A stretch of 43,550 bases of DNA from a virus (IMGVR_UViG_3300037189_032011:1-43550); one strand, 5' to 3'; counted from the stretch's first letter, positions 13,783-38,435 are shown. The notes: a model not told the origin generated them from the sequence alone. Program-made: numbers and translations.

Positions 13783-14475
13783 ATGAAGACATTGGTACTC
13801 GCTGTTTTTATTCTTATAAATGCAAGCTTACCCCTTGCAGCCGAACAGGTATACCCTAGTGTACTCAGTCTTCAAAACCCTATAGAGGCATATGAGGGTT
13901 CTCCAGACGAAGATTTGTCTGATGTGATGGTGCCTATACCCATAGAAGATAGAGTTTATAATAGAACAGGAATTCAATGTGTTTGGTGCTCTGTTGAGTG
14001 TCTAGGAAGATATGCAAATGAACCCAAATTAATAGGACTTACAGATCATAGAGACTGTAAAAGCTACGCTAGCCCTTCATCTCTAGCAGCAAAGTTAAAT
14101 AGTTTAAATGTTAAGTACGAGCAGACCACAAGCAGATCAGACAAAAGCTTGTTGATAAAATCTGTTGTAAAAGAAAGAAGAGGATGTTTGTTTGCTGTTC
14201 CTGGCCACGCTATGACTTTAGTTCACTACGATGAACTAAAAGGGATAGTTAAATATATCAACAACAGTGACAGAAGTTTGAAGGTTAGAACTTGGAGCAT
14301 CAAAGAGTTCAATCAAAGATGGGATGGTTGGATATGTGCAATATATGCAGATAATGATATAATACCTAGAAAATATACAAAAACTTATCCTTTGCCTATT
14401 ATTGATAGAAATGAAATCCAAGGTAACTACAATCAAGATTATATTTTGCAGCCTGTACTTTCAATCTTATTCTAG
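13783..14475 (+). CDS. Secreted C39/papain-like cysteine peptidase
   Basis: The 230-residue protein starts with a signal peptide (MKTLVLAVFILINASLPLAA, probable cleavage after Ala20). The catalytic set can be read as Gln65 and Cys69 in TGIQCVWCSVECLGRY, His142 in VPGHAMTLVHYD, and Asn160 or Asp163 in the YINNSD strand. This order (Q, C, H, N/D) is that of papain-fold and C39-like peptidases. AAGGAGG lies three bases before ATG. The product would act in the periplasm or outside the cell. It lies next to a carboxypeptidase with a secretion signal, so the two may cooperate in envelope peptide cleavage. It ends four bases into the convergent small gene. Confidence 0.65.
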   Translation: MKTLVLAVFILINASLPLAAEQVYPSVLSLQNPIEAYEGSPDEDLSDVMVPIPIEDRVYNRTGIQCVWCSVECLGRYANEPKLIGLTDHRDCKSYASPSSLAAKLNSLNVKYEQTTSRSDKSLLIKSVVKERRGCLFAVPGHAMTLVHYDELKGIVKYINNSDRSLKVRTWSIKEFNQRWDGWICAIYADNDIIPRKYTKTYPLPIIDRNEIQGNYNQDYILQPVLSILF

Positions 14476-14714
14476 CTTCTAATATTTTTATTGCCAAAAC
14501 CAAGATTTGGTTTTTGGCTTGAACGATTAGTTTTGTTAGATCTATTCTTTTTGGTTATTGGCAAGTCATCACCATAAGTTGGAAAAGCTCCAGGTTTTTC
14601 CAACTTATTTGCCAATGCATCACCACCATCTCCTTCATCCTCAACACCAGAAGGAAAGTTAGCCGAACCTCCATAGTTTTCTTTTTTTAACAACCAATTT
14701 TTGAAAGATACCAT
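14472..14714 (-). CDS. Small protein with capsid-targeting-like N-terminus
   Basis: The 80-residue protein begins MVSFKNWLLKKE, matching the M-x-x-F-x-x-W-L pattern seen at the start of several other minus-strand genes here and resembling the capsid-targeting peptide of T4 internal proteins. The remainder is Gly, Asn, Lys and Ser-rich and probably disordered. AGGTGA precedes the ATG. Unlike its relatives it lacks an exact L/I-x-E protease site after the motif. No enzyme domain is present, so it could be a small DNA-binding internal protein. Confidence 0.5.
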   Translation of the reverse strand: MVSFKNWLLKKENYGGSANFPSGVEDEGDGGDALANKLEKPGAFPTYGDDLPITKKNRSNKTNRSSQKPNLGFGNKNIRS

Positions 14715-14744
14715 ACTTCACCTAAAAATTATTTTTCTACAACA

Positions 14745-14752
14745 TATATAGA
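14745..14752 (+). promoter_or_regulatory. Late promoter-like element
   Basis: TATATAGA lies about 38 bases before the GTG start of the M14 carboxypeptidase gene, with AAGGAGGG between them. It resembles the TATATAA elements found before other genes in the window. Confidence 0.35.
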
Positions 14753-14789
14753 GTAAAGGAATTTTTCTTAAACATCCAAGGAGGGTATT

Positions 14790-15839: not shown

Positions 15840-15840
15840 T

Positions 15841-16452: not shown

Positions 16453-16498
16453 TCTAATCTGACTATTAATTTGGGAAAAATCGGCCTAACTTTCCTAT

Positions 16499-16506
16499 TA
16501 TAGATA
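16499..16506 (+). promoter_or_regulatory. Late promoter-like element before the portal gene
   Basis: TATAGATA lies 37 bases before the portal ATG and differs from the T4 late octamer at one position. A purine-rich leader (GAGAGAGAAGAAGG) follows it. Confidence 0.4.
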
Positions 16507-16543: not shown

Positions 16544-19081
16544 ATGCCAATCTGGAGTGATTTTTTTAAACTTTTTACTTATGCTGGCGAGCAGGATCCA
16601 TTATCCAAGGTAAAAGACTCTAGACAGTTCCAAGGTGCCGGTATTGCCCAGCCAGAGGCAATTGGTGTCGATTTCGCTGCCGGTGGACCAAACTCTGGTA
16701 TGCCGAATTTCCGTCAAACAACGGATATGATTGATACTACGACCTTAACAAATAGGTCGATGAGATATAAAGAATACGAACGTCTAAGAAATGTCCCAGA
16801 AATAGAAATGGCAATGACCGTTTTTTCAGATGAAGCATGTGTTTCTGGTGACACCAAAATTGCTACCCCTTTTGGTTTTATAAGCATCAAAGAATTAGCT
16901 GAGTCAAAAGGAGATGAGAGATTTTTAGTTTATTGCTACGATTTTGATAAAAAAGATTACACATTAGGCTGGGCTTTTGCTCCTAGACTTGTTAGAGAAG
17001 CAGAGACTCTAACAATAATTTTAGACAATGGAGCAACCTTAACATGCACAAGCGACCATAGAATTTTGAAAAAAGACGGTACTTGGTGCGAAGCAGGTAA
17101 GCTCAACATGGGTGATTCTTTGATGCCTTTTTACAGGAAACCAGCAAATCAAAGACTTACAGAATTAAAACAAAAACAATATCCAAGAATATTCACGTTC
17201 AATAAAGGTTGGATTAATGAGAGACAATTTGTAGACGATTGGAAAACTGGGAAAACTGATCCAAAGCTAGAAGAAATAAACAGAGTAATAAGAATGGTAG
17301 GAGCAGGCCTATCAGTTAGAAAAATAAAAGAATTAACAAACCATGACTGGCAAACTTTAGACGGATGGATAGCTTCACAAGGATTTACACACAAAGAGAT
17401 CAAGCATCTTTATAAACTAGAAGAAGAAAGAAAAATAATAGGGATACATGAGAATCCACACAAGCAGCCCGTTTATGATCTCTCTGTAGAAAAACATTTA
17501 TGTTTTGCAACAGATAGTCTAATTGTACACAACTGCCAGAAAGATGAGACCGGTAACATTCTCAAGGTTCAGGTTTCGAATGAAGATATAAAGCAAGAGG
17601 TTGAATTTTTGCTTCTACACAGAAGAATGTTGAACTTAAATAAGACTGGTTGGAATTGGTTCAAAAACCTTTGCGTCTTTGGGGACTTATTCTTGGAGAT
17701 TGTAATAAATCCAGACAATCCAAAAGAAGGAATATACAAAACAGTACCACTCCCACCAGAAACAATGTACCGGATAGAAACTGTAAAAGGCAAGGTTCTA
17801 GAATTTCAACAAGCCAAAGAAGGCCCAGACTACCAAGCAATAATCAGAGCCCCAGCAACAGACTTAGAATCACCAGATATAAACCAAAGCACTGCAATTC
17901 GTTTTGCTGCCAATCAAATAGTTCACTTCAAAATTGGTGATGATAGAAAAACTTTCTATCCTTATGGTATTTCTTTGATAGAACCCACAAGAGGACCAGC
18001 TCATAATTTAAGATTGTTAGAAGATGCAATGGTTGTGTATAGACTAACAAGAGCACCAGAAAGAAGAGTTTTTTATGTAGACGTAGGACAGCTACCGCCA
18101 TTTAAAGCAGAAGCTTTCTTAGATAGAATCAAAGATCAATTCAGAAAGAGAAAGATAACAAATGGTAAGGGAGCTACTGGAGCTAATCAAGTAGAAGAAA
18201 GATGGCAACCACCAGCACAAGATGAGGATTACTGGCTCCCAATCAGACCAAATAGCAACACAAGAATTGAAACTTTACCGGGAGCAGAAAACTTAGGTGA
18301 AATTGATGATGCAATATATTTTAGAAATAAACTGTTAACAGCTTTGAACTTCCCTAAAAACTATTTTAATAATGAAGATCCAAGTGCAACTAGAATAACT
18401 TTGTCTTCACAAGATGTAAAGTTTGCAAGAATGATAGAAAGATTACAAAGTAATTTTGAAGATGGTTTATTGGAAATAGTAGAAAGACACTTACACCTAA
18501 GAGGCTTCCCAGAAAAGTCTTATCAAGATCTAAAAATTAAAATGACTCCTCCTTCTGATTGGCGAGAACTATCAAGAGCAGAAGTTATAACTTCAAGATA
18601 TGCTAATGCTAGTACACTTAAAAGTGGCATCTTAATGTCAGATTACGACATTATGACTAGAATTTTAAAATACACCGAAGATGAAACAGATGAAATGCTT
18701 TCTAGACTTAAAGTTCAAAAACTAGAAGACCTAAAGCTACAGGTACTTGCACAGAACCCACAATTACTTGGTGTTGGTATTCCTGGTCAAGAAGATCAAA
18801 GCAAGGAACTAGGTACAGAAGCTGGCGGTCCATCCGCCATGCCAGGAGAAGATCAAACACAAAATTTAGAAGGCCCAGATAGTGGACAAGGCCCAGATAA
18901 TTCAGCAGAACAACAAGGTAATGCAGAGCCCGTACAAGAACCAGAAGATCAAAAAAGACCACAACCTGTTTCTCTCAAGAAACCATCAGAAGAAGAAATT
19001 AAGAAATATGATTTGGAAATCCAAGGTTATGAGTCTGAACAAGACTTCGAAGACATTGACTACAGCGTAGGTGACAACTAG
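16544..19081 (+). CDS. 20: Portal vertex protein (gp20-like) interrupted by an intein
   Basis: The 845-residue reading frame encodes a T4-type portal. The C-extein contains RLTRAPERRVFYVDVGQLPP, LPGAENLGEI and ALNFPKNYF, characteristic of gp20. The N-extein (1-98) ends at VFSDEA and the C-extein resumes at Cys331 (CQKDETG). Removal of residues 99-330 leaves 613 residues, somewhat longer than T4 gp20 (524) because of a Gln/Glu/Pro-rich C-terminal tail. The portal is the dodecameric head-neck connector through which DNA is packaged, and initiates prohead assembly. The start follows a GAAGG purine tract. The next gene starts at the last base of the stop codon. Confidence 0.92.
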   Translation: MPIWSDFFKLFTYAGEQDPLSKVKDSRQFQGAGIAQPEAIGVDFAAGGPNSGMPNFRQTTDMIDTTTLTNRSMRYKEYERLRNVPEIEMAMTVFSDEACVSGDTKIATPFGFISIKELAESKGDERFLVYCYDFDKKDYTLGWAFAPRLVREAETLTIILDNGATLTCTSDHRILKKDGTWCEAGKLNMGDSLMPFYRKPANQRLTELKQKQYPRIFTFNKGWINERQFVDDWKTGKTDPKLEEINRVIRMVGAGLSVRKIKELTNHDWQTLDGWIASQGFTHKEIKHLYKLEEERKIIGIHENPHKQPVYDLSVEKHLCFATDSLIVHNCQKDETGNILKVQVSNEDIKQEVEFLLLHRRMLNLNKTGWNWFKNLCVFGDLFLEIVINPDNPKEGIYKTVPLPPETMYRIETVKGKVLEFQQAKEGPDYQAIIRAPATDLESPDINQSTAIRFAANQIVHFKIGDDRKTFYPYGISLIEPTRGPAHNLRLLEDAMVVYRLTRAPERRVFYVDVGQLPPFKAEAFLDRIKDQFRKRKITNGKGATGANQVEERWQPPAQDEDYWLPIRPNSNTRIETLPGAENLGEIDDAIYFRNKLLTALNFPKNYFNNEDPSATRITLSSQDVKFARMIERLQSNFEDGLLEIVERHLHLRGFPEKSYQDLKIKMTPPSDWRELSRAEVITSRYANASTLKSGILMSDYDIMTRILKYTEDETDEMLSRLKVQKLEDLKLQVLAQNPQLLGVGIPGQEDQSKELGTEAGGPSAMPGEDQTQNLEGPDSGQGPDNSAEQQGNAEPVQEPEDQKRPQPVSLKKPSEEEIKKYDLEIQGYESEQDFEDIDYSVGDN
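16838..17533 (+). mobile_element. Intein inside the portal gene (232 residues, no LAGLIDADG seen)
   Basis: Block A begins at Cys99 (CVSGDTKIATPFG). Block B has TSDH with Thr169 and His172. Block F/G reads VYDLSVEKHLCF and ends in IVHN, with His329 and Asn330 followed by extein Cys331. All residues for standard class 1 splicing are present (Cys1, TxxH, His-Asn, Cys+1). At 232 residues it is larger than a minimal intein (about 130-150), but I see no LAGLIDADG or HNH motif. The extra central part (about 185-300) is basic and has a helix-turn-helix-like stretch near 246-281 (GAGLSVRKIKELT...LDGWIAS), perhaps a degenerate or different DNA-binding element. Confidence 0.9.
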
Positions 19082-19320: not shown

Positions 19321-19321
19321 C

Positions 19322-20065
19322 TTATTTCTTTTTGGACTTCTTTTCCCTAAGCATTCTTGAGAACCAACCATCCTTGTGCTCTTGTTCTTTTGCCTTATCT
19401 TTATTCTCTGCTTCTTCTCTTGACTTCCTAGCTTGTATTCCCTTTGTAGCTTTTTCAACACGATCAGCAGCGGCCTTTTTCTCTAGATCATCAATTGTAG
19501 AGTTCCATTGTGCAAATTGTGCATTTAAGCCCTTTTTCTTTGCAGGCTTTTTGTCAACCATGGCACCACAGTGTTTGCACTTAGCCTTACCAGCATTTAT
19601 TTCATATTGTGAAGCACTTCCTTCTTTTTTGCAATCTCTACAAATTACTTTTGCTTCATTCAAATAAGCTTCACCCTTCATTCCCATTGAATCAGCGGAA
19701 TTTGCACTGACCATATCGTTGCCGGATTGAACGTCGCCTAATCCCTTGGAAATCATAGGAGCTATTCTCTTACCAGCTTTGCCAGCAGCGGTTCTTAGAT
19801 CTGTAAGTGAATCATAATCATGCTGTGATAGCATTTGTTCTACTTGATCCTTAACATCAGGTATACCTTGAACAACGTTCTTTAAAGCACCTATTGTTTT
19901 GCTTGGACTTGCACCTAAAGCTAGTAGAAATGCTTGAATTGCTGTGTCCATGGCAGCTTCAGAATTTGGATCCAAGTTTACATTGGAAGCACCTCCCATT
20001 AAAGATTTGCCCATATTCATGGCAGATGTCTCTTGTAATTTTACATAATCAACAAATTTTTGCAT
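19322..20065 (-). CDS. Putative head-internal protein with capsid-targeting-like N-terminus and zinc ribbon
   Basis: I take ATG 20065 as the start because AGGAG lies ahead of it; an upstream frame to 20098 lacks support. The 247-residue product begins MQKFVDYVKLQETSA, which fits the capsid-targeting pattern and contains LQE, a gp21-type (L/I-x-E) cleavage site after residue 12. Near residues 142-165 is CRDC...CKHC, a single zinc ribbon. The C-terminal 60 residues are Lys/Glu/Arg-rich and helical, ending in a strongly basic tail suited to DNA binding. It lies on the minus strand between portal and core genes. I infer a packaged internal protein. Confidence 0.55.
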   Translation of the reverse strand: MQKFVDYVKLQETSAMNMGKSLMGGASNVNLDPNSEAAMDTAIQAFLLALGASPSKTIGALKNVVQGIPDVKDQVEQMLSQHDYDSLTDLRTAAGKAGKRIAPMISKGLGDVQSGNDMVSANSADSMGMKGEAYLNEAKVICRDCKKEGSASQYEINAGKAKCKHCGAMVDKKPAKKKGLNAQFAQWNSTIDDLEKKAAADRVEKATKGIQARKSREEAENKDKAKEQEHKDGWFSRMLREKKSKKK

Positions 20066-20099
20066 TTTAACTCTCCTATTTTTTGATGGTTGGTGCATA

Positions 20100-20107
20100 A
20101 CTATATA
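20100..20107 (-). promoter_or_regulatory. Late promoter-like element, minus strand
   Basis: Read on the minus strand this is TATATAGT, 34 bases before the ATG at 20065 with the AGGAG site in between. Confidence 0.35.
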
Positions 20108-20213: not shown

Positions 20214-22067
20214 ATGAAAAGAAAACTAATTAGTTTCGATGTATTCAAAAAAATCGAAGAACAATCTCTCGCAAATACTCAAAATGAACTAATAGAAGCC
20301 CAAGAAGTTTTAGCAGAGGCTCTAGGTCTTGAAGACCTCAAGTTGTTCACTTTTAGCGAGTCCGATGTTACCTATGAAACACCCGATGGAACATTCATCC
20401 ACGCAACATACGTTATCAAAGACGACAAAGTAATTCTTGAGAATATCGAGCAATTAGTCATTGACGAAGAAAGCGAAAAGAATGGCACTCGTCAAATAAT
20501 TTCAAATATGATTGATTCCATCATTGATGGCGACGATATAAATGCAACCAATCAATTTGAACAATACATCGACGCCCCTAGCACCAAGAGATCACTATCA
20601 GAAGCTGTATTCTCAGTAACTGCTTCAAAGCCAACTGGCAAAAGAAGCAAGCTCTACCACAAAAAGAGAAACAAAGCAGCTGTTCGCAAGGGTGTTATAT
20701 CAAGACTAAGAACACTTAATTCCTTGTCTCCAAGTAAAAAAGCTTCTCTAAAGAGAGAACGAAGTCGCACAGCAAAAAAACTCGGTAGCAGAGGAAGCTC
20801 AAAACGTGCCCGTGTTTACGTTAGAAAAGTAAAGTCCAGCCTAAAGGAATGGACAAACCTCTGTGAGAACGTTTTTGGTTACTTGAACTTCAGAGAATTC
20901 GGCCCAGTTATTAATGAGTCATTTTTCAAGCACGACAAGAGCGGTGACCTAACAGGAGTCGCTTTCCCAACTCTACAAAAGAGAAATGAAGGCAAGATAC
21001 TTTCATTGAATTACGATATTCTAGATACAGAAGTAAAAGTAGTTCGTGGCAAAATGAAGAATCTCAAAGAAGATCAAAACTTTGTCAAGGCTATGGCAGA
21101 ACTCAAGAGATATAACAATATTTCTGACAACGAAGGTCTTGAAACAACTCTAGAAGCTATTGCTAAGTTCTGGCCAGATGTACTCTATGTCACCGAAGGT
21201 GAACTAGCTGCACACATCTCTGCTGCTTTAGATTCTGCAAATGTAAAGAATTATGATGATCAAATTTGTGCTTTTATGGCCGAAGCTATCCTAAGAACAG
21301 CCCATAATGCATATACTGATCGTGTTAAGAAGATAGGTGTTTTAGCCGGTTCAGAAAAAGACTTAACATCTGAATGCAAAGAATGTGAAGATGCTTACAA
21401 TGATTTTAAGACCGTTGCCGAGCAATTCTACGCCAGAGTAGACGAGTCAGAAGATAGAGAACTACAAGTATTTGCTGATCTCTACAAAGCACTTCGTCAA
21501 GTTCACGAATTGGCTGTAGAAGCTGATGACGCAGAAATCGCTAATGAAGCTGCTGAGCTAATCACTCAATGTGCTTCTATTCTAAACGGAGAAGAACCAG
21601 CTGACTTTGAACTAGCTGAAGCAGTTGCCGAATACTTGGCCTCTATCGTAGAAGCCAACGTTGAAGGTGCCTCAGAAGATTGGGATGTAGTTACTACACC
21701 ACATCACACTGTAGTGGGCGACCACCCAGTGCTAGCTAAGAAGGCCAAGGTTGATGGCGTTCCTTCTATGCATTCAGGTGATTGGAAAAGCCCAGCTCCA
21801 GTGAGCGACGGCAAGAGTTATAGTGGCAATCTAGACGACGAAATGCAGAGCGATGGTTGGAGCAACGTCGGTGGCAATGACACATGGCCAACTCTAGATA
21901 ACCCATATGTACCAAAAGCAGATACATTCAAGATGAAGGAAAAGTCTGTTGTTGATGATGGCGATGAACTCGCCCACAATCAATCAAATGACACATGGCC
22001 AAATCTAAAGAACCCTTACTCCCCCGATGCCGAGGGTGGTAATCATATGCCCGGCGACGTTAAATAA
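20214..22067 (+). CDS. Prohead core-like protein at the gp67/gp68 position
   Basis: This 617-residue protein lies between portal and protease genes, where T4 encodes the small core proteins gp67 and gp68, but is far larger. The N-terminus (residues 1-20, SFDVFKKIEEQSL) has a candidate I-x-E protease site. Residues about 140-210 are very basic (KKRNKAAVRKG, KKASLKRERSRTAKK), like a DNA-binding or core-interaction segment. Residues 280-480 are acidic and helical. The C-terminus holds two copies of an NDTW-P-L-NPY unit (about 560-610). I infer a scaffold or internal structural protein processed by gp21. The identity rests on position and composition, not on recognised homology. Confidence 0.55.
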   Translation: MKRKLISFDVFKKIEEQSLANTQNELIEAQEVLAEALGLEDLKLFTFSESDVTYETPDGTFIHATYVIKDDKVILENIEQLVIDEESEKNGTRQIISNMIDSIIDGDDINATNQFEQYIDAPSTKRSLSEAVFSVTASKPTGKRSKLYHKKRNKAAVRKGVISRLRTLNSLSPSKKASLKRERSRTAKKLGSRGSSKRARVYVRKVKSSLKEWTNLCENVFGYLNFREFGPVINESFFKHDKSGDLTGVAFPTLQKRNEGKILSLNYDILDTEVKVVRGKMKNLKEDQNFVKAMAELKRYNNISDNEGLETTLEAIAKFWPDVLYVTEGELAAHISAALDSANVKNYDDQICAFMAEAILRTAHNAYTDRVKKIGVLAGSEKDLTSECKECEDAYNDFKTVAEQFYARVDESEDRELQVFADLYKALRQVHELAVEADDAEIANEAAELITQCASILNGEEPADFELAEAVAEYLASIVEANVEGASEDWDVVTTPHHTVVGDHPVLAKKAKVDGVPSMHSGDWKSPAPVSDGKSYSGNLDDEMQSDGWSNVGGNDTWPTLDNPYVPKADTFKMKEKSVVDDGDELAHNQSNDTWPNLKNPYSPDAEGGNHMPGDVK

Positions 22068-22084: not shown

Positions 22085-22774
22085 ATGGAGCAAAAACAAA
22101 TACTATTCGTAGATTGCTGCAATAATTCCGGATTTACCATGAGCCTAAATGAGTCTGCCGATAGCGGACTCACAAGGTTCAGAGGTAAATTTCAGGAAGC
22201 AGAAGCAGTCAATAAAAATAAAAGAAGTTATCCTTACGCTGTTTTAGATGAAAATGTCAAGAAATTGGTACCAATCATCGAAGCAAGAGGATTAGTAGGT
22301 GAATTAGACCATCCAACAGATAGCATAATTCACTTTGAAAAATGCTCCCACGTAATCACAAAATTATGGTGGGAAGGCAATAGCCTTATGGGAGAAGGCG
22401 AAATTCTTAACACCCCACACGGTAGAATCCTCAAGAGCCTACTAAATGACGGTGTTAGAATTGGAATCAGCAGCCGTGGCGTAGGAAACGGCAGAAATGA
22501 TGAGAATGGAATTTTGGTAATTGGCGAAAGCTATAAGTTAATTACTTTTGATGCTGTAGCCGATCCAAGCACCTACTCTGCTTTTCAGGAGAAAGTAGTA
22601 GGAAAGAAAGAGCACTATTCACCCAATGCAACAACAAGCACATCTAATGCAGAAAAATCTTCGACAAAAAACGAGACCAGCTGCATACATAATGTTAACA
22701 AAGAAGCACTTATTGCTTGCTTAGGTGGAATAATCGAACAACAAACATGTAACTTAAAAGCGAGGTTAGGCTAA
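22085..22774 (+). CDS. 21: Prohead protease (gp21-like)
   Basis: The 229-residue protein contains RFRGKFQEAEAVNKNKRSYP, then GELDHP with the catalytic His76, and RIGISSRGVG with the catalytic Ser at 129 or 130. This matches the T4-type prohead serine protease family (related to herpesvirus assemblin), which cleaves head proteins after L/I-x-E. The last 50 residues are low in conservation and probably removed by autoprocessing. AAAGGAG precedes the ATG by seven bases. Its stop shares a base with the scaffold start (TAATG), so the two are translationally coupled. Confidence 0.88.
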   Translation: MEQKQILFVDCCNNSGFTMSLNESADSGLTRFRGKFQEAEAVNKNKRSYPYAVLDENVKKLVPIIEARGLVGELDHPTDSIIHFEKCSHVITKLWWEGNSLMGEGEILNTPHGRILKSLLNDGVRIGISSRGVGNGRNDENGILVIGESYKLITFDAVADPSTYSAFQEKVVGKKEHYSPNATTSTSNAEKSSTKNETSCIHNVNKEALIACLGGIIEQQTCNLKARLG

Positions 22775-23667
22775 TGGAAAAGATTGTAGAAGCATTAAAA
22801 AAACTTTTGCCCGAAACTGAAATCAATGAAGTATCCTCAGCTGTTCAAACGATGTTAGATCAAGCAAAGGCAGATCTAGAGGCTGAATTCAATCAAAAAC
22901 TTGAAGAAGCCTATGCCGAGCTTTCTGAAGAAGTTGCAACAGCAGAAAAAACAGCAGAACAAGGTTATGAAGAAGCATATGCAATTATTGCTGACCTTCG
23001 TAATCGTCTAGAACTCCAAGGTGAGGAATACAAGTCTGCTTTGGAAGAAGGTTATGAAGAAGCATATCAAATGCTCAAGCAAGAAAAGGACAAGAATCAA
23101 AAGCTAGAAGTCGAAATGTACGAAGAGTACGACCAAAAGCTTGCCGAAATGAAGGAGTATATTGTTGATAAGGTTGACCAGTTCCTACAGTTCAAGGGCA
23201 AGGAAATCTATGAACAAGCCAAGCGTGATATCGTTAATGATCCACGTATGGTTGAACACAAGATTGCACTTGACAAGATTGTGGGCATAACTGCCAACTA
23301 TCTCTCCGATGATGATTTCAACACAGTTACATCTTCAAAGATTGAAGAAACAAATAAAGCCATTGAAGAAATGAAGGGCCAGCTCCGTATTATGGAAGCT
23401 CGCAATATCAGACTTTCAACGGAAAACACAAAACTTAATGAAGCTGTTCGTCACGCTCAAGAAGTTATAACCGAAAGCAAAAAGGTTGTAGCCGAGAGCA
23501 AGAAGGAAGCTGTCATTAATGAACAGAAAGAAAGAGCAACGAAAGCAACGAATGTAACGGGGAGAGGAAAGACGGATGAAGGTACTGTCATAGCGGAATA
23601 TGCAGCACCACAAAGCTCAGGTATGGACCAATTGTTGGTCCTATCAGGATTAAAACAGGCTCAATAA
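22774..23667 (+). CDS. 22: Prohead scaffold core protein (gp22-like)
   Basis: The 297-residue product is almost entirely helical and acidic, with predicted coiled coil from about residue 25 to 150 and again from 180 to 250. A short unit GYEEAY recurs (about residues 69-74 and 90-95). Position between protease and major capsid protein, length and composition match T4 gp22 (269 residues), which forms the prohead core and is degraded by gp21. The C-terminus (MDQLLVLSGLKQAQ) is likely the capsid-interaction end. Start by TAATG overlap with the protease gene. Confidence 0.85.
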   Translation: MEKIVEALKKLLPETEINEVSSAVQTMLDQAKADLEAEFNQKLEEAYAELSEEVATAEKTAEQGYEEAYAIIADLRNRLELQGEEYKSALEEGYEEAYQMLKQEKDKNQKLEVEMYEEYDQKLAEMKEYIVDKVDQFLQFKGKEIYEQAKRDIVNDPRMVEHKIALDKIVGITANYLSDDDFNTVTSSKIEETNKAIEEMKGQLRIMEARNIRLSTENTKLNEAVRHAQEVITESKKVVAESKKEAVINEQKERATKATNVTGRGKTDEGTVIAEYAAPQSSGMDQLLVLSGLKQAQ

Positions 23668-27146: not shown

Positions 27147-27154
27147 TATATAAT
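27147..27154 (+). promoter_or_regulatory. Late promoter-like element
   Basis: TATATAAT lies 24 bases before the ATG at 27179, with AAAAGGGG between them. Confidence 0.45.
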
Positions 27155-27178: not shown

Positions 27179-27922
27179 ATGAAAAAACAAAGTTCAAATG
27201 ATTTTTTTGATTCTTTAAATAGAATGTTGGGTAAAAAGGAAGAGCAAAAAACTGCTCAAACCGTTGTGGAATCAAAAAACTATAATTTGTTTTTATCAGG
27301 TTTAATAAATGAAGAAGCTTATACTGAAGCTGAACAGCAGGCTCAAAACGCTCAGCAAGCTCCACAGGCTCAGGCTCCTCAGGCTCAGGCACCAAATGCC
27401 CAAACTCAACAACAGGCCCCACAAGCCCAAGCTCAGCCTCAACAGGTTGATATAAATCAGGTTGCTTCTCAGTTGCAATTTCAGCCTACTAGCAAGAAGA
27501 AATTAATGTATCAATTTGTACAATCTACAGATAATATGCCTGCTATGAGTTATGCTGTAGCACAGCAACAGATGCCAGTTGTTACTATGACTGCTGATGG
27601 CAAAGAGACACAGAATACTGCTGAGCCTAATGATGTGGTTATGAGTGGTCCTAGCCGTGAGCAGTATGTAATAAAGTCAGCTAAGTTTCCAAAGTTGTAT
27701 CAGGGTCAAATTGGTGGTCCAGTACATCCCGAACAAGGCCCTAGAAATGTTGCTATTTACAATGGAAAAGAGCAAGTTAATTTTACTGCACCTTGGGGTG
27801 AGAATATGGTATTAAAACCAGGTGATTATTTAGTAAAAGAAAAAGAAGCTGAAGGTAAGTATTATCGTATCGCTAAGCAAGAATATGAACAAACTTATAA
27901 TGCTCTCGGTAAGGTTGGTTAA
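27179..27922 (+). CDS. Unknown protein with Pro/Gln/Ala linker, possible head protein
   Basis: The 247-residue protein has three parts. Residues 1-50 include NYNLFLSGLINEEA, a capsid-targeting-like stretch with an I-x-E site at about 43-45. Residues about 52-90 form a PQAQ-type low-complexity linker. Residues 105-247 are globular and end in KPGDYLVKEKEAEGKYYRIA plus a YEQTYN helix, a PGDYLV domain seen in various phage proteins. AAAAGGGG precedes ATG. Function is unknown. An internal or decoration protein would fit the neighbourhood. Confidence 0.5.
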   Translation: MKKQSSNDFFDSLNRMLGKKEEQKTAQTVVESKNYNLFLSGLINEEAYTEAEQQAQNAQQAPQAQAPQAQAPNAQTQQQAPQAQAQPQQVDINQVASQLQFQPTSKKKLMYQFVQSTDNMPAMSYAVAQQQMPVVTMTADGKETQNTAEPNDVVMSGPSREQYVIKSAKFPKLYQGQIGGPVHPEQGPRNVAIYNGKEQVNFTAPWGENMVLKPGDYLVKEKEAEGKYYRIAKQEYEQTYNALGKVG

Positions 27923-29270: not shown

Positions 29271-29273
29271 AAT

Positions 29274-29322: not shown

Positions 29323-31512
29323 TTAGAATAATCTGTGTGAACATACTGTAACAGCAGGAACATAAGCTCCTGATTTACCACTGCAAATTCCTAAAGCTTG
29401 TTGTAGTCTGCTGCATTTTGGATAGAAGTACTTCCACTTTCTGCAGGAGCATTTAGAATTTGTCAAGCAGCCCATTCCGGTTGATCCACATGTTTGACCG
29501 CAAGTCTTAACAACAGGTGTTTGTCCGCTGACTGTGTCTAAGAACTTTTGGGCCAAATTTGTATACTCTTCTGTTGTAAAAAGAGTTCCATCTTTCTTAG
29601 AAACGGTTAAGGCGTACAACTCTGTTCTACCGCTTATTCCTTCGACGGCATGATCGTCATACTGAGTTGACTCATCATAGTAGTGATTTATTCCGTCGCT
29701 AGTTCCGGGTACTATTATCAAGTGAGTTGGAGCAGTTTCATTATTCTCTGCTTCGACAGTTTTAACAAATACAGAGTATAAGTTTCCTTTTGATGTTAAT
29801 GAAAGCACATCCACGGCATAATTGGTTTCGCCATCTGCACCAATATTTCCTGTTATAGAGAATTGACTAACATTTACGCCTGTGGCGACCAAAACAAACA
29901 TTCCGGGATACATGTTAGTAAAGTAGCTGCTCCCTGCACCAAAATAATCTGTTCCGTCCATTACACTTCCATCAGGATTGCTAGGTAGATAAGCATAACC
30001 CATTGAATCTTCAGGATTATCAGCTACGTCAATTGTCATTTGTGTATGTGTCGATGGAATAGATAGATCGCTATCTACATCATCTTCAGTTATACTATTA
30101 TAAACTTGTGTTAAATCTGTATTATAGAAATTACCATCATCATACATGTCAAAGTTACTATCGTTGATTCCTGTTGTGCGAATCTTGAATGGGCTGCCAA
30201 AGCTTGCAACTCCTGATCCATTGAGCTTGGCATAGTATCTCTTTGGCTGTATAAAATAGCCACCAACCCATATTTCGCTAGATGACACAATGCACACATC
30301 AAAAATAGAATTGTAGTAATCCCAACCATCAATTTCTTGTTGATAAAAATTTGAATTATCATTATAGAAATCAGTTGGATTTCCAAAAGACGAATCCAAA
30401 CCACCATTAGCAGTCAATCTGCAAATATAGTTTCTTGTGCTCTCGTCATATGAATTAAAGTCTCCGGCAACGATTAGTTTGTTATCTGGCTGAACCTTAA
30501 TCTTGGAAACATATGGATAATAAAAACCGTCACCGTCATCTGGGTTACTATAATACTGAAGTGGATAGCGGAGGCTTGGGGCAAAAGTATTATCATACGC
30601 TCCAGTGGAGCTTAATCTAGCAATAGAAACTGCGTTATTTGAATCTACTAGATCAAAAATACCGCCAATGATAATTTTATTGTCACTTTGTACGGCCACA
30701 GTTTTGACAAAACAATCATAACAGCAAGCATCAACAACAATACTTGGAGCCGTGAAGCCTCCATCTAATGTTCCATCACTATTTAGTTTGGCAATAAAAC
30801 CTGTGTTGTTGCTGTATCCACCTACTACAATAATTTTTCCTGTTGAATCTACAGCAATATCATAAAGAGCACTAACGTCAAAATTACTTGCTGCAACATT
30901 GTTGGTAAATGTTTCATTTAGAGTGCCATCACTATTTAATTTAACTAATCTCGTGTGATCTGCATCTGCATTATAATCAAATCTTCCACAGACTAAAATT
31001 GAATCATCTTCTAAAACAAGTACTTTGTTTACAACATTATTACCATTTTCAAATATGTTGCCTACGTTTGTATCAAATGTGGTATCAACGGTTCCATCTG
31101 AATTTAATCTTGCAATTCGACGAGAATTTAAGCTCATCCAACCAGAGCCAGAATTATATCTTGTAAACCAACCAGCGGCTATAATTTTGCCAGTTGACTG
31201 GACACCAAGTGTATAGATGGTGTCGCCAAACCAAGTTTTTGTAAAGCTTTCATCTGTTACGTTTGAACTGCTTACTTTGGTAACATAGCTAAAGCAGCAA
31301 TCACCACCATCGTTGATGTCTAAAAAGCCTTCTCCTGCGAGAATCATGTCTCCACTAGTGTGTTTGGCTACAGCCATAACTGCTTGGCCATTACAGTCGC
31401 AGTCTAAAGTCACAGATCTTTCGTCTGTAAAGTAGAACAGATCATTTACGGTATCAGTAATCTGGCCATGGCCAGAATTTAGTTTAGAAAGTACGGAATT
31501 AATATTTACCAA
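29323..31512 (-). CDS. Delta-60 repeat beta-propeller protein with Cys-rich tail, TTG start
   Basis: The 729-residue protein consists of about seven repeats of the delta-60 type (for example GKIIAAGWFTRYN then ARLNSDGTVDTTF), giving a predicted beta-propeller over about residues 20-440. It is followed by a domain (about 460-665) shared with the plus-strand gene at 32706, marked by IPSTHTQ, YFGAGSSYFTNMYPGMFVLV and SQFSITGNIG. The last 60 residues are Cys-rich. The TTG at 31512 is preceded by AAGGAGG at six bases and fits a real TTG start. Delta-60 proteins in phages are probably adhesins or baseplate/fibre components, which I infer here. Confidence 0.75.
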   Translation of the reverse strand: MVNINSVLSKLNSGHGQITDTVNDLFYFTDERSVTLDCDCNGQAVMAVAKHTSGDMILAGEGFLDINDGGDCCFSYVTKVSSSNVTDESFTKTWFGDTIYTLGVQSTGKIIAAGWFTRYNSGSGWMSLNSRRIARLNSDGTVDTTFDTNVGNIFENGNNVVNKVLVLEDDSILVCGRFDYNADADHTRLVKLNSDGTLNETFTNNVAASNFDVSALYDIAVDSTGKIIVVGGYSNNTGFIAKLNSDGTLDGGFTAPSIVVDACCYDCFVKTVAVQSDNKIIIGGIFDLVDSNNAVSIARLSSTGAYDNTFAPSLRYPLQYYSNPDDGDGFYYPYVSKIKVQPDNKLIVAGDFNSYDESTRNYICRLTANGGLDSSFGNPTDFYNDNSNFYQQEIDGWDYYNSIFDVCIVSSSEIWVGGYFIQPKRYYAKLNGSGVASFGSPFKIRTTGINDSNFDMYDDGNFYNTDLTQVYNSITEDDVDSDLSIPSTHTQMTIDVADNPEDSMGYAYLPSNPDGSVMDGTDYFGAGSSYFTNMYPGMFVLVATGVNVSQFSITGNIGADGETNYAVDVLSLTSKGNLYSVFVKTVEAENNETAPTHLIIVPGTSDGINHYYDESTQYDDHAVEGISGRTELYALTVSKKDGTLFTTEEYTNLAQKFLDTVSGQTPVVKTCGQTCGSTGMGCLTNSKCSCRKWKYFYPKCSRLQQALGICSGKSGAYVPAVTVCSHRLF

Positions 31513-32705: not shown

Positions 32706-35700
32706 ATGAAAACATATACCAGTGACCTCACTTCTAAACCAGATTGGCTCGGAACCTATGGTGAAGCAACCGGCAAAACCCTAGATACCGACTTTGGCTT
32801 TGGTCCTGATGGTATGTATTTCGTTGGGAGTGCTGGAGAAGAAGCCCCAGTTACTGGATATAGTGTGAGAACTAATTTTAATATACTAGGGCATCAAGCT
32901 TGTGAAGTCATTTTCACTGTTAATCATAGCATTTGCTCGGATCAAGGTATATGTTTTTATAATGATGGGCAATCACCAAACTGGAATTGGAATCCAGATT
33001 CTTCAAGAATAGCATTTCAAATAAATTGCCCAGTGCCTTTTCTTTACGGAACAAATAAATTTGTAAATAATGATGGTGAGCATTATGGAAATTCCACAGT
33101 CCAATCAGGTTCTGAGGTTCTAGGGAATGGCATCTATACCTTTAAGGTCACCTACAACCCAGTAGCCAGAACCGTCACTGCCGTCACCTATGAAGGCGAT
33201 GACACCTTAGGAACTGTTCTTGACACCATAGTATTGCATGAGAAATTGATGGATGGCGGTTCTTACAGAATTGGATTTGATGCTGACTATGATGAAGGCA
33301 CGGCGTACTTCAAGGGCGTCATGATCAACATTTATGAAGCAAATGGTGCCTCGGACGACACAGAATTAAATGCACAGCTTGCTGGTCTCAAGACCGGTTA
33401 TTCTCAAATTACGGATCTTGTTGAGGGTCCATTTTTGTTCTCAGACGACGCTGACATAGACATGGGAGAAGGAAATCCAGATGGAGATGGAGTAGATCCC
33501 AACTTCTTTGAATTGGGATTTGGCAGTGCAATATGCATCCAAGATGATGGCAACATTGTGGTTGCTGGATATTCTGGGAACGCTGACTTATCAAAAAGTA
33601 CTAGAAGAATAGATGTTTCTGGCAAAGAAGACGAATCGTTTAGTCCTCCTGTTTTTAATGCTCCATTAACTAGTGTTGTTCAGATGAGTGATGGAAGATT
33701 AGTTGTGGGTGGTTTGTTTACTAGCTTTGAAAGGTTTGACGGGCCATCTAACAGTGGAAGCTGGAGTCCCACCATAGACGGCAACCTAGTAAATATTGGA
33801 GGAATGGTTTGCTTAAATCCGGACGGATCAATAAGCAAAAGAGATGGTGGAGATATTGGTTTTGAAGACAGAGCCATAAGTGGCGTCCCCGTATCTGTTT
33901 ATACCATAAAATTACTAGGCGATGATAGCGTTTTGGTAGGAGGACATTTTACTCATTATGACGATGTAGAATCCCCTTATTTGGCAAAAATAGATAGCGA
34001 TGGAGTTATAGATGAAGTTTTTGCCGCCAATATTTTAAGCCTAGGTTTGAGTGATTCTGTATCCGCAATTACTGTTGATGATAGTGGAAAAATACTAATT
34101 GGGGGCGGATTTACAAAAGGAATCGCTAGGCTCAACGGCGATGGATCTTTGGACAATTCTTTTGATCCGGGAGCTGGTTTCACTGGCAATTTCCAGAATA
34201 CTGGGGTTTTTGCGATACTTCCATTATCAAGCGGAAAGATATTGGTTGGACATTCCGGCTCAGATTATGACGGGTCATCTTGTAACCGTGGACTGGCAAG
34301 ATTGAACAGTGACGGATCCTTGGACAACACATACGCCCCGGACCTTTACGGGTCTGATGGATTTGGAGTTGTGCTTGCCATTGCCCAACAACAAGATGGA
34401 AAGGTGCTTGTCGGCGGATCTTTTGCAGCATTCGAGGGAGGCAGTCTTAACAAAATAGTCAGATTGAATACTGACGGTTCTTTGGATGAAAGCTTTAGCA
34501 ACGGATTTGGCTTTACTCCTGCTGGTTACAATTGGGGTCCCGTAACACAGGATATTAAATTAGATTCAGTTGAAAACATATATGTAGCTGGAAGCTTTAC
34601 TGACTACAACCACGCCGCAAGATTTCATTACGCCAAGTTGAATACAAATGGGGTGCTGCAAGAGTGGAGCGTTCTGCCTGCTTTCAAGCAGATGGGAATA
34701 AATGATGGCATGGACGACATGTACGACGGAGCAAATTATTTAAATACTAATCTGACGCTTCCTTATCTTTACATTAAGTGCTATGGAGGCAATAATATTG
34801 TCAGCGGCGGCGAGGGAGCTTGTGGGTGTCCCGAACCAGGGGTTATTTGCGGACTCAACACTAACAGCAGCATACCTTCTACTCACACTCAAGCATGGGA
34901 TGATGATCCAGAACAAGATTTCTATGATCCAGATTTGGATGAGCACAGATATCTTCCTGTTTGCGACAGCCGTGTTATGGTCGGGGATGGATATTTCGGT
35001 GAAGGCAGCAGCTACTTCACAGCTATGTTTCCCGGCATGTTCGTGCTTGTGGCAAACAATATCAACATCACGCAGTTTTCAATAACCGGCAATATAGGCA
35101 CGGATGGAGATGGTGTCGATGCAGTTGATATCTATCCAATAAATGCTGGTGGTAACACTTACACCGCCTATTTTAAAACTAATTATGGTGCTGGTGATCC
35201 TTCGATAAACCACATCATAATCGTTGATGGCAATGGAGATGGAATTGATCAGTTTTACGATCCAACTTCTAGAGGTGACGAGCATTGTATCACCGGGCTT
35301 GAGGGCAAGACAAAACTCTTTTTTCTTTGTGTGGGCAAGGCCGATGCAGTGGCAATGACAACCGAAGAGGCAAAAGCTATTGCAGCTAAGTTCTTGGAAA
35401 TAATAGGGCTAGGTACTAATGAGTGCAGCACAGCAACATATGAATTGGATTTGAGTCCAGATAATCCTGATAAGTATCCAAACTATAGGTTTGATGGTGA
35501 GGGCAACATGGATACTTCATTAGTGATTGACCCGATAACCGGCAAACGTGTTTCTACCCAAAGAACTGGTTATTTTGAAATTGTTGATAGTTGCGGAAAC
35601 AGAAAAGTTGTTTCAAACAAAGACGGAGAAAGTTTTGGAGAAGTTCCTAAAACTTGGGCCGATGCACTTGGTTCAATTATAAAAGCTGCCCCAGAAGTCA

Positions 35701-36332
35701 AAGATATTCGCATACTAATTAATAATAATTATGTTGATTATGTAGAAAATGTTCAAAATAGTTGGTCTGAGGCAAATAACCTTATGGCTTTTATGGACAG
35801 TGTCAGTATCTCTTACACAACATTTACAGATGTTAGCGAATCAAGTTTCTCCAGTTTATCTGAAGGATTTTTATTGATACCTGAGATAGAAGAAGAGGAT
35901 TTAAATCCCGATCTCACCAGTGGAGCTAGATCTGCTATCGCAAGTTTTGTTGCCAATGGCGGAACGCTAATTATGTTTCATCCAAGCAATGGCGATGTGC
36001 CAGAAGTGTTAAATGCGGTTTTTGGCTTTAGTTTAGATTCTAACGGTGCAGATGAACCAATCAACTTAACACAGGGTGGGGCAATGCTTTTTCCTGAGGC
36101 TAGCTCTACACTCGATGATCTTAGTGCTACGTCATCGATAAACACAAGCACTTTACCACAAGATGCAGTTGTTATTTATCAAGGAGATGGAGAAAATCAA
36201 TCAGTAGTAACCATGATTCCTTATGGATTTGGCAAGATATATATTCTAGGCTGGGATTGGTACAATGCTCTACCTATTGGCGAAGAAGACGGTGGTTGGA
36301 ATCCTTTGCTTGAATCAATACTAAAATCTTAA
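32706..36332 (+). CDS. Large delta-60 beta-propeller adhesin-like protein
   Basis: The 1208-residue protein has four visible parts. Residues 1-220 form a lectin/LamG-like beta domain (GYSVRTNFNILG, GSYRIGFDADYDEGTAYFKG). Residues about 235-660 hold delta-60 repeats (GKILIGGGFTKGIARLNGDG). Residues about 720-905 are the domain shared with the minus-strand paralog (SSIPSTHTQ, YFGEGSSYFTAMFPGMFVLV, TQFSITGNIG). The C-terminal part (about 995-1208) resembles a GATase1/ThuA-like Rossmann fold (SFVANGGTLIMFHPSNG, YGFGKIYILGWDWYNA). A role as a tail-fibre or baseplate adhesin is inferred. A Shine-Dalgarno AGGAG precedes ATG. Confidence 0.7.
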   Translation: MKTYTSDLTSKPDWLGTYGEATGKTLDTDFGFGPDGMYFVGSAGEEAPVTGYSVRTNFNILGHQACEVIFTVNHSICSDQGICFYNDGQSPNWNWNPDSSRIAFQINCPVPFLYGTNKFVNNDGEHYGNSTVQSGSEVLGNGIYTFKVTYNPVARTVTAVTYEGDDTLGTVLDTIVLHEKLMDGGSYRIGFDADYDEGTAYFKGVMINIYEANGASDDTELNAQLAGLKTGYSQITDLVEGPFLFSDDADIDMGEGNPDGDGVDPNFFELGFGSAICIQDDGNIVVAGYSGNADLSKSTRRIDVSGKEDESFSPPVFNAPLTSVVQMSDGRLVVGGLFTSFERFDGPSNSGSWSPTIDGNLVNIGGMVCLNPDGSISKRDGGDIGFEDRAISGVPVSVYTIKLLGDDSVLVGGHFTHYDDVESPYLAKIDSDGVIDEVFAANILSLGLSDSVSAITVDDSGKILIGGGFTKGIARLNGDGSLDNSFDPGAGFTGNFQNTGVFAILPLSSGKILVGHSGSDYDGSSCNRGLARLNSDGSLDNTYAPDLYGSDGFGVVLAIAQQQDGKVLVGGSFAAFEGGSLNKIVRLNTDGSLDESFSNGFGFTPAGYNWGPVTQDIKLDSVENIYVAGSFTDYNHAARFHYAKLNTNGVLQEWSVLPAFKQMGINDGMDDMYDGANYLNTNLTLPYLYIKCYGGNNIVSGGEGACGCPEPGVICGLNTNSSIPSTHTQAWDDDPEQDFYDPDLDEHRYLPVCDSRVMVGDGYFGEGSSYFTAMFPGMFVLVANNINITQFSITGNIGTDGDGVDAVDIYPINAGGNTYTAYFKTNYGAGDPSINHIIIVDGNGDGIDQFYDPTSRGDEHCITGLEGKTKLFFLCVGKADAVAMTTEEAKAIAAKFLEIIGLGTNECSTATYELDLSPDNPDKYPNYRFDGEGNMDTSLVIDPITGKRVSTQRTGYFEIVDSCGNRKVVSNKDGESFGEVPKTWADALGSIIKAAPEVKDIRILINNNYVDYVENVQNSWSEANNLMAFMDSVSISYTTFTDVSESSFSSLSEGFLLIPEIEEEDLNPDLTSGARSAIASFVANGGTLIMFHPSNGDVPEVLNAVFGFSLDSNGADEPINLTQGGAMLFPEASSTLDDLSATSSINTSTLPQDAVVIYQGDGENQSVVTMIPYGFGKIYILGWDWYNALPIGEEDGGWNPLLESILKS

Positions 36333-36342
36333 AGGAGAATGA

Positions 36343-36516
36343 ATGTTTAATTTATATGTAGAAACTACAAAGCTTGGAAAATTACGAGAGCTTTTGAATG
36401 AGGTAAACTCAAACTACAGAGTAGGCGAAAAAAATGAGCAAGGCTCTGTAACTACTTTAAAATTTAAAAGTCAAGAAGAATTGGATAAAGCAAGCGAAAT
36501 TTTAAAAAAAATATAA
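36343..36516 (+). CDS. Small unknown protein, 57 residues
   Basis: AAAGGAG at 36331-36337 begins in the stop codon of the large delta-60 gene and precedes this ATG by five bases. The product MFNLYVETTKLGKLRELLNE... is helical and charged with an alternating C-terminal half ending in SEILKKI. No family is recognised. The good ribosome site and tight spacing support that it is real and cotranscribed with the gene above. Confidence 0.6.
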   Translation: MFNLYVETTKLGKLRELLNEVNSNYRVGEKNEQGSVTTLKFKSQEELDKASEILKKI

Positions 36517-36531
36517 ACTTTATAATTAAAC

Positions 36532-37362
36532 TTATAGAGTTTTGCCTTTGTTACCAGGAATCTTCATGCTTGGACGTTCTACGTTTGCTTGTCCTTTAGC
36601 GAATTCACCTGGCCCGTAAAGATAAAGATCAGCAGGAATTTTACCGCCTAAAGTTCTTGCTACATTATTGATGTTCTTAGGTAAGTCATCATAAAAATGG
36701 ATTTCTTCAGGTTGTTCTGGGGCTACTTTATTATATAAAATATTTCCTTTGTCTCCACCTGTTGTTCCGACTATGCCCAAAGATGGTGCTGCTCCTTGTT
36801 TGCTTAAAAAGTTATGTATATCTTTTTTGTTAGTTGGCTCTAATTCTTTTCCATGAATTGATTTACCTTTTCCTTCGCCTCTTCTAGCTGTCAAAACCAT
36901 TGTATCAGCACCAGAAGCGTTAGCTTTTTTAATTTTATCAATAGTTTGTTTAATCGGAACCACAGTATTTTGATTTACTCCGAATGACGCAGTGAAATCT
37001 ATGAGTACGTTTGGTCCAGTTGGACTTGGTTCGGACATTCCTGTTATAGATTCTTTTCCGGGATAGTTTGTTTGTATTTTTGCTAATCCGCTAGAGCTAA
37101 CATATGCAGCATATCCCCCTCTAGAAGGAACGGGCTCTACTGATTTACCGTGTGGTCCTTTAATGAGTTCGTTACTCTTCAAACCATTTTGGTTAAGCCA
37201 TTGTAGGACTTCTTGTTCTGATTTGTGTGCTGCTTGTCCATCATTAAAGAACATGACTATATTCGGGCTATCAGTTACAGCTATGGTATCATCAAAGTCA
37301 AAAACATGAGCTTGCTTTTCTGGAGCAGCTTCTTCCCTAATTAGCCATTCCTTGAAATTCAT
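36532..37362 (-). CDS. HAD-superfamily phosphatase-like protein with capsid-targeting-like N-terminus
   Basis: I start at ATG 37362 because it forms an ATGA overlap with the stop of the upstream ParB-like gene. The 276-residue product begins MNFKEWLIREEAAPEKQ, a capsid-targeting-like peptide with an I-x-E site. HAD motif I is VFDFDDT (Asp22, Asp24), motif II is MVLTARRG and a late acidic motif is HFYDDLPKNINN. All are consistent with a phosphatase or nucleotidase fold. An internal HAD protein could be ejected into the host with DNA. Polynucleotide 3'-phosphatase relatives share the fold, but the substrate is unknown. Confidence 0.65.
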   Translation of the reverse strand: MNFKEWLIREEAAPEKQAHVFDFDDTIAVTDSPNIVMFFNDGQAAHKSEQEVLQWLNQNGLKSNELIKGPHGKSVEPVPSRGGYAAYVSSSGLAKIQTNYPGKESITGMSEPSPTGPNVLIDFTASFGVNQNTVVPIKQTIDKIKKANASGADTMVLTARRGEGKGKSIHGKELEPTNKKDIHNFLSKQGAAPSLGIVGTTGGDKGNILYNKVAPEQPEEIHFYDDLPKNINNVARTLGGKIPADLYLYGPGEFAKGQANVERPSMKIPGNKGKTL

Positions 37363-38435
37363 TTTTTGATACCGGCTAAAATCGCCCATTCATTGAGATT
37401 AGGACCATTATAATCTGTGTGAGCTACTTGTCTCTGAGGTTGTTGTTGTGGAAACTTTTGAACAGTCTGCTGTTTATTTTGCTGATTTGGTAAATTTGCC
37501 CCAACATTAATCTGCCCAGTTCCTGGTGCATTCATATTTGCACCAACATTTTGTTGGTTTGCATTTGGAGTTGCCACAGCATTTCCTGAGTTATTTGGTG
37601 TTGCTTGAACATTTGCTCCAACATTTTGATTTGTAGCACCAGCAGCTATTAAAGTATTATTGCTTAGAGGAACATTCCAGTCTATTTCCCCGCTCATTAG
37701 TTTTTTTATAACATCATCTATTTCTTGTTTATTTTTGACCACAGGCATATCTACTCTTTCAGGAGCATCTGGGTGTCTATCTGTTGGAAGCTTTTGAGCG
37801 TTTCCAATCATAACTTGTTTTCCATTGTCTAAATTGCCTCCACCAAGTTTAGTTAAAGATGCAACAACTTCTTCTGCACTTAAATTTGGCCATTGATCTG
37901 TTCCATTTTGAATAAATTGTTCGAGTACTTGCGGAACCGATGCGGCAAATTGTTTAATATCACCTTTTCCTGGATTTCCTGCTCTTCCTTTTGATTTTGT
38001 CCAAAGGTTTAACGCAGTTGTCAAATTAGAAGCTGGAAGTCCCACTCTAGCAACTTTAACGGATGCTGAGGGGTCTATGAGTATTCTGGCTGCCCATCTA
38101 TGATGTCCGTCCATTATGTAATTATCACTTGAAACTATTGCTTCCATATCATTTAGGTCTGGTTTTCCATCTCTTAAAAAACCTAGTGCAAAAGCAACTG
38201 CTTTTGAAGGAATTACTTCTTTTTGCATGGGTTTTAAACTACCAACCGCTACAGGGTCATCAATTTTTGCAGTCGGCGCAGCATCCTTGTTTTGATTAGG
38301 GGGATCGCTGTCGGCAGTTCCTTGTGTCACAGCTACTTTAGCTAGTTCAGGGGTTATCTTGCTCAAAGGAGCAGGTTTGTTTGTGCCTAGTTCTGCTAGT
38401 TCTAAAATGTTCCACATCTGTAAAAAACTTTTCAT
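37359..38435 (-). CDS. ParB-like nuclease-domain protein, possible head-internal
   Basis: The 358-residue protein contains IMDGHHRWAARILID (near residue 108-122), the D-G-H-H-R-W-A core of the ParB/Srx-like N-terminal domain. The N-terminus is MKSFLQMWNILELAELGTN, with overlapping L-x-E sites (ILE, LAE), like the capsid-targeting peptides of nearby minus-strand genes. The rest of the N-terminal 100 residues and a 90-residue Asn/Gln-rich segment (NQNVGANVQATPNN, 265-345) are low complexity. GGAGGT precedes ATG. It is coupled to the HAD gene by ATGA. The ParB fold may be a DNase or CTPase; which one is not decidable here. Confidence 0.65.
   Translation of the reverse strand: MKSFLQMWNILELAELGTNKPAPLSKITPELAKVAVTQGTADSDPPNQNKDAAPTAKIDDPVAVGSLKPMQKEVIPSKAVAFALGFLRDGKPDLNDMEAIVSSDNYIMDGHHRWAARILIDPSASVKVARVGLPASNLTTALNLWTKSKGRAGNPGKGDIKQFAASVPQVLEQFIQNGTDQWPNLSAEEVVASLTKLGGGNLDNGKQVMIGNAQKLPTDRHPDAPERVDMPVVKNKQEIDDVIKKLMSGEIDWNVPLSNNTLIAAGATNQNVGANVQATPNNSGNAVATPNANQQNVGANMNAPGTGQINVGANLPNQQNKQQTVQKFPQQQPQRQVAHTDYNGPNLNEWAILAGIKK

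Follow-up and report, generated by a model that had tools for sequence, protein, structure and literature searches.

The internal proteins IPI to IPIII of bacteriophage T4 carry an N-terminal capsid-targeting sequence (CTS; Mullaney and Black 1996, as reviewed in PMC9026906 and PMC3012670). Mutagenesis of IPIII assigned targeting to residues 4 and 7 and processing to residues 8 and 10, and the two functions are separable in T4 (PMC9026906). The ejection proteins of SPN3US and phiKZ also make up a large internal load, and their propeptides are cut after E by a protease related to the T4 prohead protease gp21 (PMC5694885, PMC9026906). In the T4-like cyanophage S-CREM2, 52 virion proteins have been identified by mass spectrometry (Table 3 of PMC10665884), in a paper that does not mention targeting. 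In this work we analysed the virus record IMGVR_UViG_3300037189_032011:1-43550, hereafter the window, i.e. the whole 43,550-bp stretch with positions counted from its first letter. Five of its minus-strand genes, designated by their lower coordinates 14472, 19322, 26427, 36532 and 37359, encode proteins that begin with a short aromatic peptide (the tag). We estimate a probability of about 0.86 that these five N-terminal peptides are CTSs working like those of the T4 internal proteins.

The tag matches the residues found important in T4, with aromatic residues at positions 4 and 7, followed by L/I-x-E. All five N-termini were found where the initial annotation had placed them. Its statement that all five fit M-x-x-[FY]-x-x-[FWY]-[LV] with small shifts holds for four, which are described by M-x(1-3)-[FY]-x-x-[FWY]-[LIVM]; the exception is 37359, which has M at the second aromatic position (7) and a profile score of 7.3, close to the threshold of 6.4. 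L/I-x-E was indeed present within 16 residues in four of the five, as LQE (19322), LKE (26427), IRE (36532) and ILE/LAE (37359). Like the T4 internal proteins, the window proteins combine an N-terminal tag of 10-12 residues, in four of the five a hydrophobic residue followed by E at the predicted cut site, a gp21 protease, and a single tag shared by unrelated mature proteins. PHROG and Pfam scans of the five gave no match to the IPI-III families.

Gene sets of the window and of six relatives, W01 (LR756511), G001, G002, G003, G004 and G010, were searched for the motif. A narrow regular expression matched three window proteins, versus 0.06-0.09 in composition-preserving shuffles, and 18, 10, 10, 10, 9 and 8 proteins in the six relatives in the above order, for which shuffling gave 1.3, 0.5, 0.3, 0.23, 0.22 and 0.10; the relatives with 10 matches versus 0.5 and 10 versus 0.3 are 532 kb and 343 kb long, respectively. 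In unsupervised motif finding, which considered all gapped triplets at N-termini with mid-protein windows as a control, the highest-ranking patterns included F..W.E, K.F..W and F..WL. The motif came out on top in W01, G001 and G002 (in W01, 15 F..W.E versus 0.7 expected and 11 F..WL versus 0.9) and in G003, G004 and G010 taken together, where F..WL occurred 19 times versus 0.8, and nothing comparable was seen in the mid-protein windows. A profile iterated at 5% false discovery retrieved 187 tagged proteins over the seven records (W01 63, G002 30, G001 28, G004 24, G003 20, G010 17, window 5), and 8 in the shuffled control. The first aromatic site was F, Y or W in 181 of the 187 and the second W, F or Y in 176. 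In the window, this search, which the initial annotation had proposed, matched exactly the five proteins already named; their own presence in the profile makes this mildly circular, and the de novo motif result is free of that. Two DNA primases (G002 273366, G004 213233) with low scores were judged to be false matches, as probably is a low-scoring Mpo1-like protein.

Other forms of the search were less productive. A DNA-level expression for the tag gave no match in the window, its codon choice being too narrow. A start-independent scan that required E at the position used in T4 missed all five window proteins, because their E is mostly at position 12; in several relatives it nonetheless gave start-anchored enrichment. 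C-terminal copies of the motif, as in 26427 and the Cas9-like ORF12 of S-CREM2, showed no clear overall enrichment. The shortness of the motif, and the shifts tolerated in the first reading, could suggest a by-product of amphipathic N-terminal helices (M-K plus aromatics) or of translation-start bias. We consider this very improbable, since neither composition-preserving shuffles nor internal windows reproduce the motif, since it is missing from S-PM2, immuto, G023 and G024 scanned alike, and since orthologues conserve the tag.

The motif was then compared with published virion proteomes, using for S-CREM2 a rebuilt set of 219 annotated proteins. Four of them (a SAM hydrolase, an APH-like kinase, a cytidylyltransferase and a hypothetical protein) match the strict pattern M..F..F[LIMF].E, and every one of the four was detected in virions (Fisher p = 0.003). 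When the motif was allowed anywhere in the first 30 residues, six of seven matches were virion proteins, the Cas9-like protein and ORF13 being added (p = 0.0008), and a looser expression without the cut site gave four of seven (p = 0.057), all these p-values being uncorrected for the choice among several patterns. The virion cytidylyltransferase of S-SZBM1 begins MRFRQFIIEA, so that SAM hydrolase, APH-like kinase and cytidylyltransferases of these cyanophage virions share starts resembling M..F..F[LI].E with the tagged proteins studied here; in contrast to the huge-phage tags, they have F and not W at position 7 and are few per genome. The same scan on T4 recovered IPII and IPIII. The SPN3US and phiKZ propeptides are not known to be of this short aromatic type. 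As separate observations, the 54-residue T4 gp61.1 (NC_000866, 18966-19130, minus strand, L255) unexpectedly begins MKTFKEFIKED, the full T4 targeting pattern, and was not mentioned in the T4 papers searched for it; S-CREM2 ORF12 (L262, 7704-10313, minus strand), found in the virion, contains RFASFMAEA near residue 18 and has KTFRDFLN as its last residues, which might mean that each end carries a targeting motif or that the start was called in the wrong place.

One could also imagine that the peptide binds another phage structure, such as a compartment, a membrane or a portal-bound complex, instead of the prohead scaffold. The presence of a cut site in only about half of the tags leaves some room for this. 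It is nevertheless improbable in view of the use of the same residues as in the T4 CTS, the four-of-four agreement in S-CREM2 and the tags on known T4 head cargo.

Processing was considered apart from targeting. Among proteins picked on the targeting residues alone, [LIVM]xE follows shortly after in 33 of 69 (shuffled mean 22.1, with 5 of 2000 shuffles reaching 33), and it is found in 13.9% of untagged proteins. At positions 10 and 12, the hydrophobic residue and E occur together more often than expected (34 versus 15.6), which points to an optional site with a cut register mostly at L10-x-E12, two residues past the 8-10 of T4. A gp21-type protease gene (22085-22774, PF03420) lies in the same phage as the tags, and its identification in the initial annotation is borne out by the PHROG and Pfam matches. 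Cleavage is thus likely in many tagged proteins, not in all, and we infer that it takes place in the window phage.

The tag is kept within families and shared between unrelated proteins. The mature parts of the 187 tagged proteins form 145 sequence clusters, and 24 multi-member clusters keep the tag. At L318, two unrelated adjacent proteins, one of them a NUDIX hydrolase, begin MNFKEWLISEE and MNFKEWLILKEE, near-identical to the tag of 36532. The tag of 14472 is conserved at related loci, including L001, L013 and L035, and 14 loci hold a relative. In the relatives of 19322 (18 loci), M..F..Y[VIL]..[LIVM]xE is conserved, with [LIVM]xE at residues 10-12; the start of 19322 (20065) has an AGGAG ribosome-binding site directly upstream, and an upstream ATG at 20098 is disfavoured. 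No relatives of 26427 were found among viral contigs, and its C-terminus holds a tag-like stretch, SFKEWLSKK (26430-26456). PHROG and Pfam gave no function for 14472 or 26427, and a weak zinc-ribbon match alone for 19322.

The start of 36532 (37362) overlaps the 37359 stop (ATGA). The catalytic set of 36532 (DFDDT, TAR, K, YDD) is invariant across six relatives, in agreement with its initial description as HAD phosphatase-like; HAD relatives in other T4-type phages, at about 44% identity, have all HAD motifs and different N-termini. A sequence search with 36532 returned no solved structure. In 37359 and its relatives DNYIMDGHHRW is invariant, and most of its ParB-like relatives align from residue 16 onward, directly past LELAE. 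The predicted model of 37359 has a core pLDDT above 90, and a fold search gave no significant match, the best PDB matches being ParB-N domains at a weak E of 0.19. A stretch related to the tag had further been described inside 27179. It is present (NYNLFLSGLINEE, residues 34-46), and the relative G010:17231-17737 begins MKTFHQWLEN right where the conserved part starts; in the window it is internal, closer to the gp22 C-terminus (LLVLSGL) than to an N-terminal tag, and the protein has no tag at its N-terminus.

Most tagged proteins of the relatives have no known domain. The domains recognised are NADAR, tRNA nucleotidyltransferase, HAD_SAK_1, tRNA-ligase phosphodiesterase, C39 peptidase, PrkA and ParB. 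A tagged 2H protein matches 2'-5' RNA ligase best and also Acb1, the latter match ranking behind that to the general 2H family. A SAM-lyase match scored 18.8 bits, under the cut-off of 28 for the family, which also has a stronger match in the set (3.8e-6). In contrast to the T4 internal proteins, three of which are named, 20-63 tagged proteins are predicted in the long records, W is favoured at position 7, and the mature proteins are unrelated to the internal proteins and often enzymes. This list fits early action in the host. Some tagged proteins could instead be packaged to serve head structure or maturation (as core or DNA-condensing components) and not be delivered to act in the host, as the conservation of the small 14472 and of 19322 with the head cluster and the slightly more basic character of tagged mature parts compared with untagged proteins would allow. 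For the set as a whole we regard this as unlikely, and it may hold for some of the five; the HAD active-site residues are invariant, and NADAR, tRNA nucleotidyltransferase, 2H/Acb1-like, C39 protease and NUDIX proteins of relatives have no obvious role in assembly.

Several observations weigh against the interpretation of the tags as CTSs. About half of the tagged proteins lack [LIVM]xE; the 14472 family is mostly without L-x-E, and 14472 itself has KKE instead. Gene starts were taken from a simple caller, and 5% false discovery implies about nine false matches. The tag is not universal among T4-type phages, because S-PM2 and immuto, like G023 and G024, showed no enrichment in the regular expression scan. 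S-SZBM1 gene 191 begins MKSFKSFLSE and is outside the list of detected virion proteins. Finally, the virion data come from T4-like phages other than the window phage and its near relatives. Against these stand the restriction of the motif to N-termini, its unsupervised rediscovery, its occurrence on about 145 unrelated domains, its conservation in families, its association with L/I-x-E and the neighbouring Peptidase_S77 gene. On this evidence, and as the initial annotation had proposed, the tag is in its testable features a predicted T4-type CTS; we strongly infer that its carriers are packaged in the window phage, and more weakly that they are ejected.

A second signal was seen at the C-terminus of 37359, which ends LNEWAILAGIKK, where the gp22 scaffold of the window ends DQLLVLSGLKQAQ and the scaffold of one relative SEWTAMASLAGIKKD. 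The scaffold of the distant phage G023 ends DRWARLAGINK, and ERWQRLAGL forms the end of its HAD protein and of two ParB-like proteins, all encoded downstream of the capsid gene; the corresponding pair at L121 has the ends DRWAVLAGIKS and ERWQRLAGILK. Ends resembling [ED]xWxxLAG[IL] are thus shared with gp22 by 37359 and by HAD and ParB-like proteins of G023, L121, L307, L309 and L310, which, unlike gp22, are not scaffolds. Among 1,381 distinct proteins, 60 have a scaffold-like end (0.6 expected), namely 51 scaffolds, 8 ParB-like or HAD proteins and one other; the 60 include near-identical relatives, and these families are over-represented because capsid, ParB and HAD sequences served as queries for collecting the loci. 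The ParB and capsid genes are at most 3 kb apart in 16 of the 26 loci where this could be tested, ParB typically following some 200 bp downstream. A scaffold-like end is missing from most ParB relatives of other phages and is therefore not needed for the link of the ParB gene with the head cluster. One protein, G010 17740-18771, was first read as unrelated to ParB, its last 25 residues alone aligning; blastp connects this protein, as found in L031, to ParB-like proteins, so it was left out of the case for C-terminal tag swapping. Through its end, 37359 may be a cargo protein that imitates the scaffold and in this way co-assembles with it. No paper on scaffold mimicry by cargo turned up, in searches none of which was aimed directly at such mimicry.

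Judged by its capsid and head genes, the window is a piece of a T4-type phage whose closest long relatives are huge. Its gp23 shares 79.7% identity with the capsid protein of the uncultured phage LR756511.1 (595,163 bp) and 87-91% with capsids from IMG/VR contigs as long as 532,729 bp, and portal, probable core protein, gp21 protease, gp22 scaffold and gp23 follow the T4 order (Table 1). The 617-residue probable core protein had no PHROG match. TATATA precedes all four tagged transcription units by 27-42 nt and is also found ahead of the core and fibre genes, which suggests shared, probably late, expression of these genes, with TATATA as a candidate late promoter. It occurs upstream of 13 of 39 window genes, structural ones included, where random windows would give 1.3 and shuffled upstream regions 4.2, and was not found before the glycosyltransferase cluster of the window.

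Table 1. Features of the window discussed in the text
Feature	Coordinates	Strand	Remarks
80-aa protein; tag MVSFKNWLLKKE at 14679-14714	14472-14714	-	Profile score 17.5
TATATA element	14745-14750	-	Upstream of 14472, 36 nt before start
247-aa zinc-ribbon-like protein; tag MQKFVDYVKLQE at 20030-20065	19322-20065	-	Profile score 13.0
TATATA element	20102-20107	-	Upstream of 19322, 42 nt before start
617-aa protein, probably prohead core	20214-22067	+	Flanked by portal and protease; relatives in 73 loci
gp21-like prohead protease (Peptidase_S77)	22085-22774	+	PHROG 207 5.9e-47, PF03420 1.2e-24; presumed remover of tags
gp22-like scaffold	22774-23667	+	Between gp21 and gp23; C-terminus conserved in relatives
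gp22 C-terminal DQLLVLSGLKQAQ	23626-23664	+	Resembled by 37359 end
gp23 major capsid protein	23710-25152	+	PHROG 138; served to place phage
232-aa protein; N-terminal tag MLKYKQYLLLKE at 27090-27125	26427-27125	-	Profile score 15.6
TATATA element	27147-27152	-	Upstream of 26427, 27 nt before start
247-aa PGDYG-like protein with internal NLFLSGLINEE	27179-27922	+	Not N-terminally tagged in window
276-aa HAD-type phosphatase; tag MNFKEWLIREE at 37330-37362	36532-37362	-	Profile score 18.2
358-aa ParB/Srx-like protein; weak N-terminal tag MKSFLQMWNILELAE at 38391-38435	37359-38435	-	Profile score 7.3
37359 scaffold-like C-terminus LNEWAILAGIKK	37362-37397	-	L[AS]G[IL]xK, as gp22 end
TATATA promoter-like element	38458-38463	-	Upstream of 37359/36532, 28 nt before start

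Some further features were noted. The portal gene (16544-19081) contains an intein-like insertion (CVSGDTKIATPFGFISIKEL ... VHNC), and 13267-13677 encodes a 136-residue protein of nearly all Asp/Glu, with a ribosome-binding site. Two fibre-like proteins on opposite strands (29323-31512 and 32706-36332) have related stretches, consisting of LNSDGT-type repeat units and then an FGxGSSYFTxMFPGMF block. G023 (L213-L219) and G024 (L220-L227) are distant T4-type phages without the tag; several of their head-cluster proteins begin L..[LI]I..E[IV] (6 versus 0.3 in G023), perhaps another targeting peptide. In G001 (L164-L190), about 18 called proteins have a common RSIDD-type C-terminal peptide, perhaps a dispersed DNA repeat.

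As the prohead assembles, the two aromatic residues at positions 4 and 7 would bind the scaffold core and pull the attached protein inside, and gp21 would then cut, where a site exists, after [LI]-x-E, mostly at residues 10-12, releasing the mature cargo. Co-assembly with gp22 or its partner is the probable role of the scaffold-like C-terminus of 37359. Carried inside the head, the cargo would most likely be delivered to the next cell along with the DNA. There, the HAD and ParB-like proteins, and the RNA-repair, NADAR and Acb1-like enzymes of relatives, could act before new phage proteins are made. The new elements here are the size of this repertoire and the finding that 37359 ends like a scaffold. 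The odds seem to us evenly balanced on the broader proposal that, in these huge phages, the T4 tag serves as a general code by which tens of different proteins, counter-defence and RNA-repair types among them, are sorted into each virion, with cargo copying the C-terminus of the phage's own scaffold as a second, independent code; if functional, this C-terminus would be a second way of loading the head. A sequence rule for head-packaged proteins turns unknown virion content into a candidate list, of about 20-60 proteins per long record, some with recognisable enzyme domains. The same rule accounts retrospectively for the SAM hydrolase, kinase and cytidylyltransferases in cyanophage virions, and it would place counter-defence-like folds at the start of infection.

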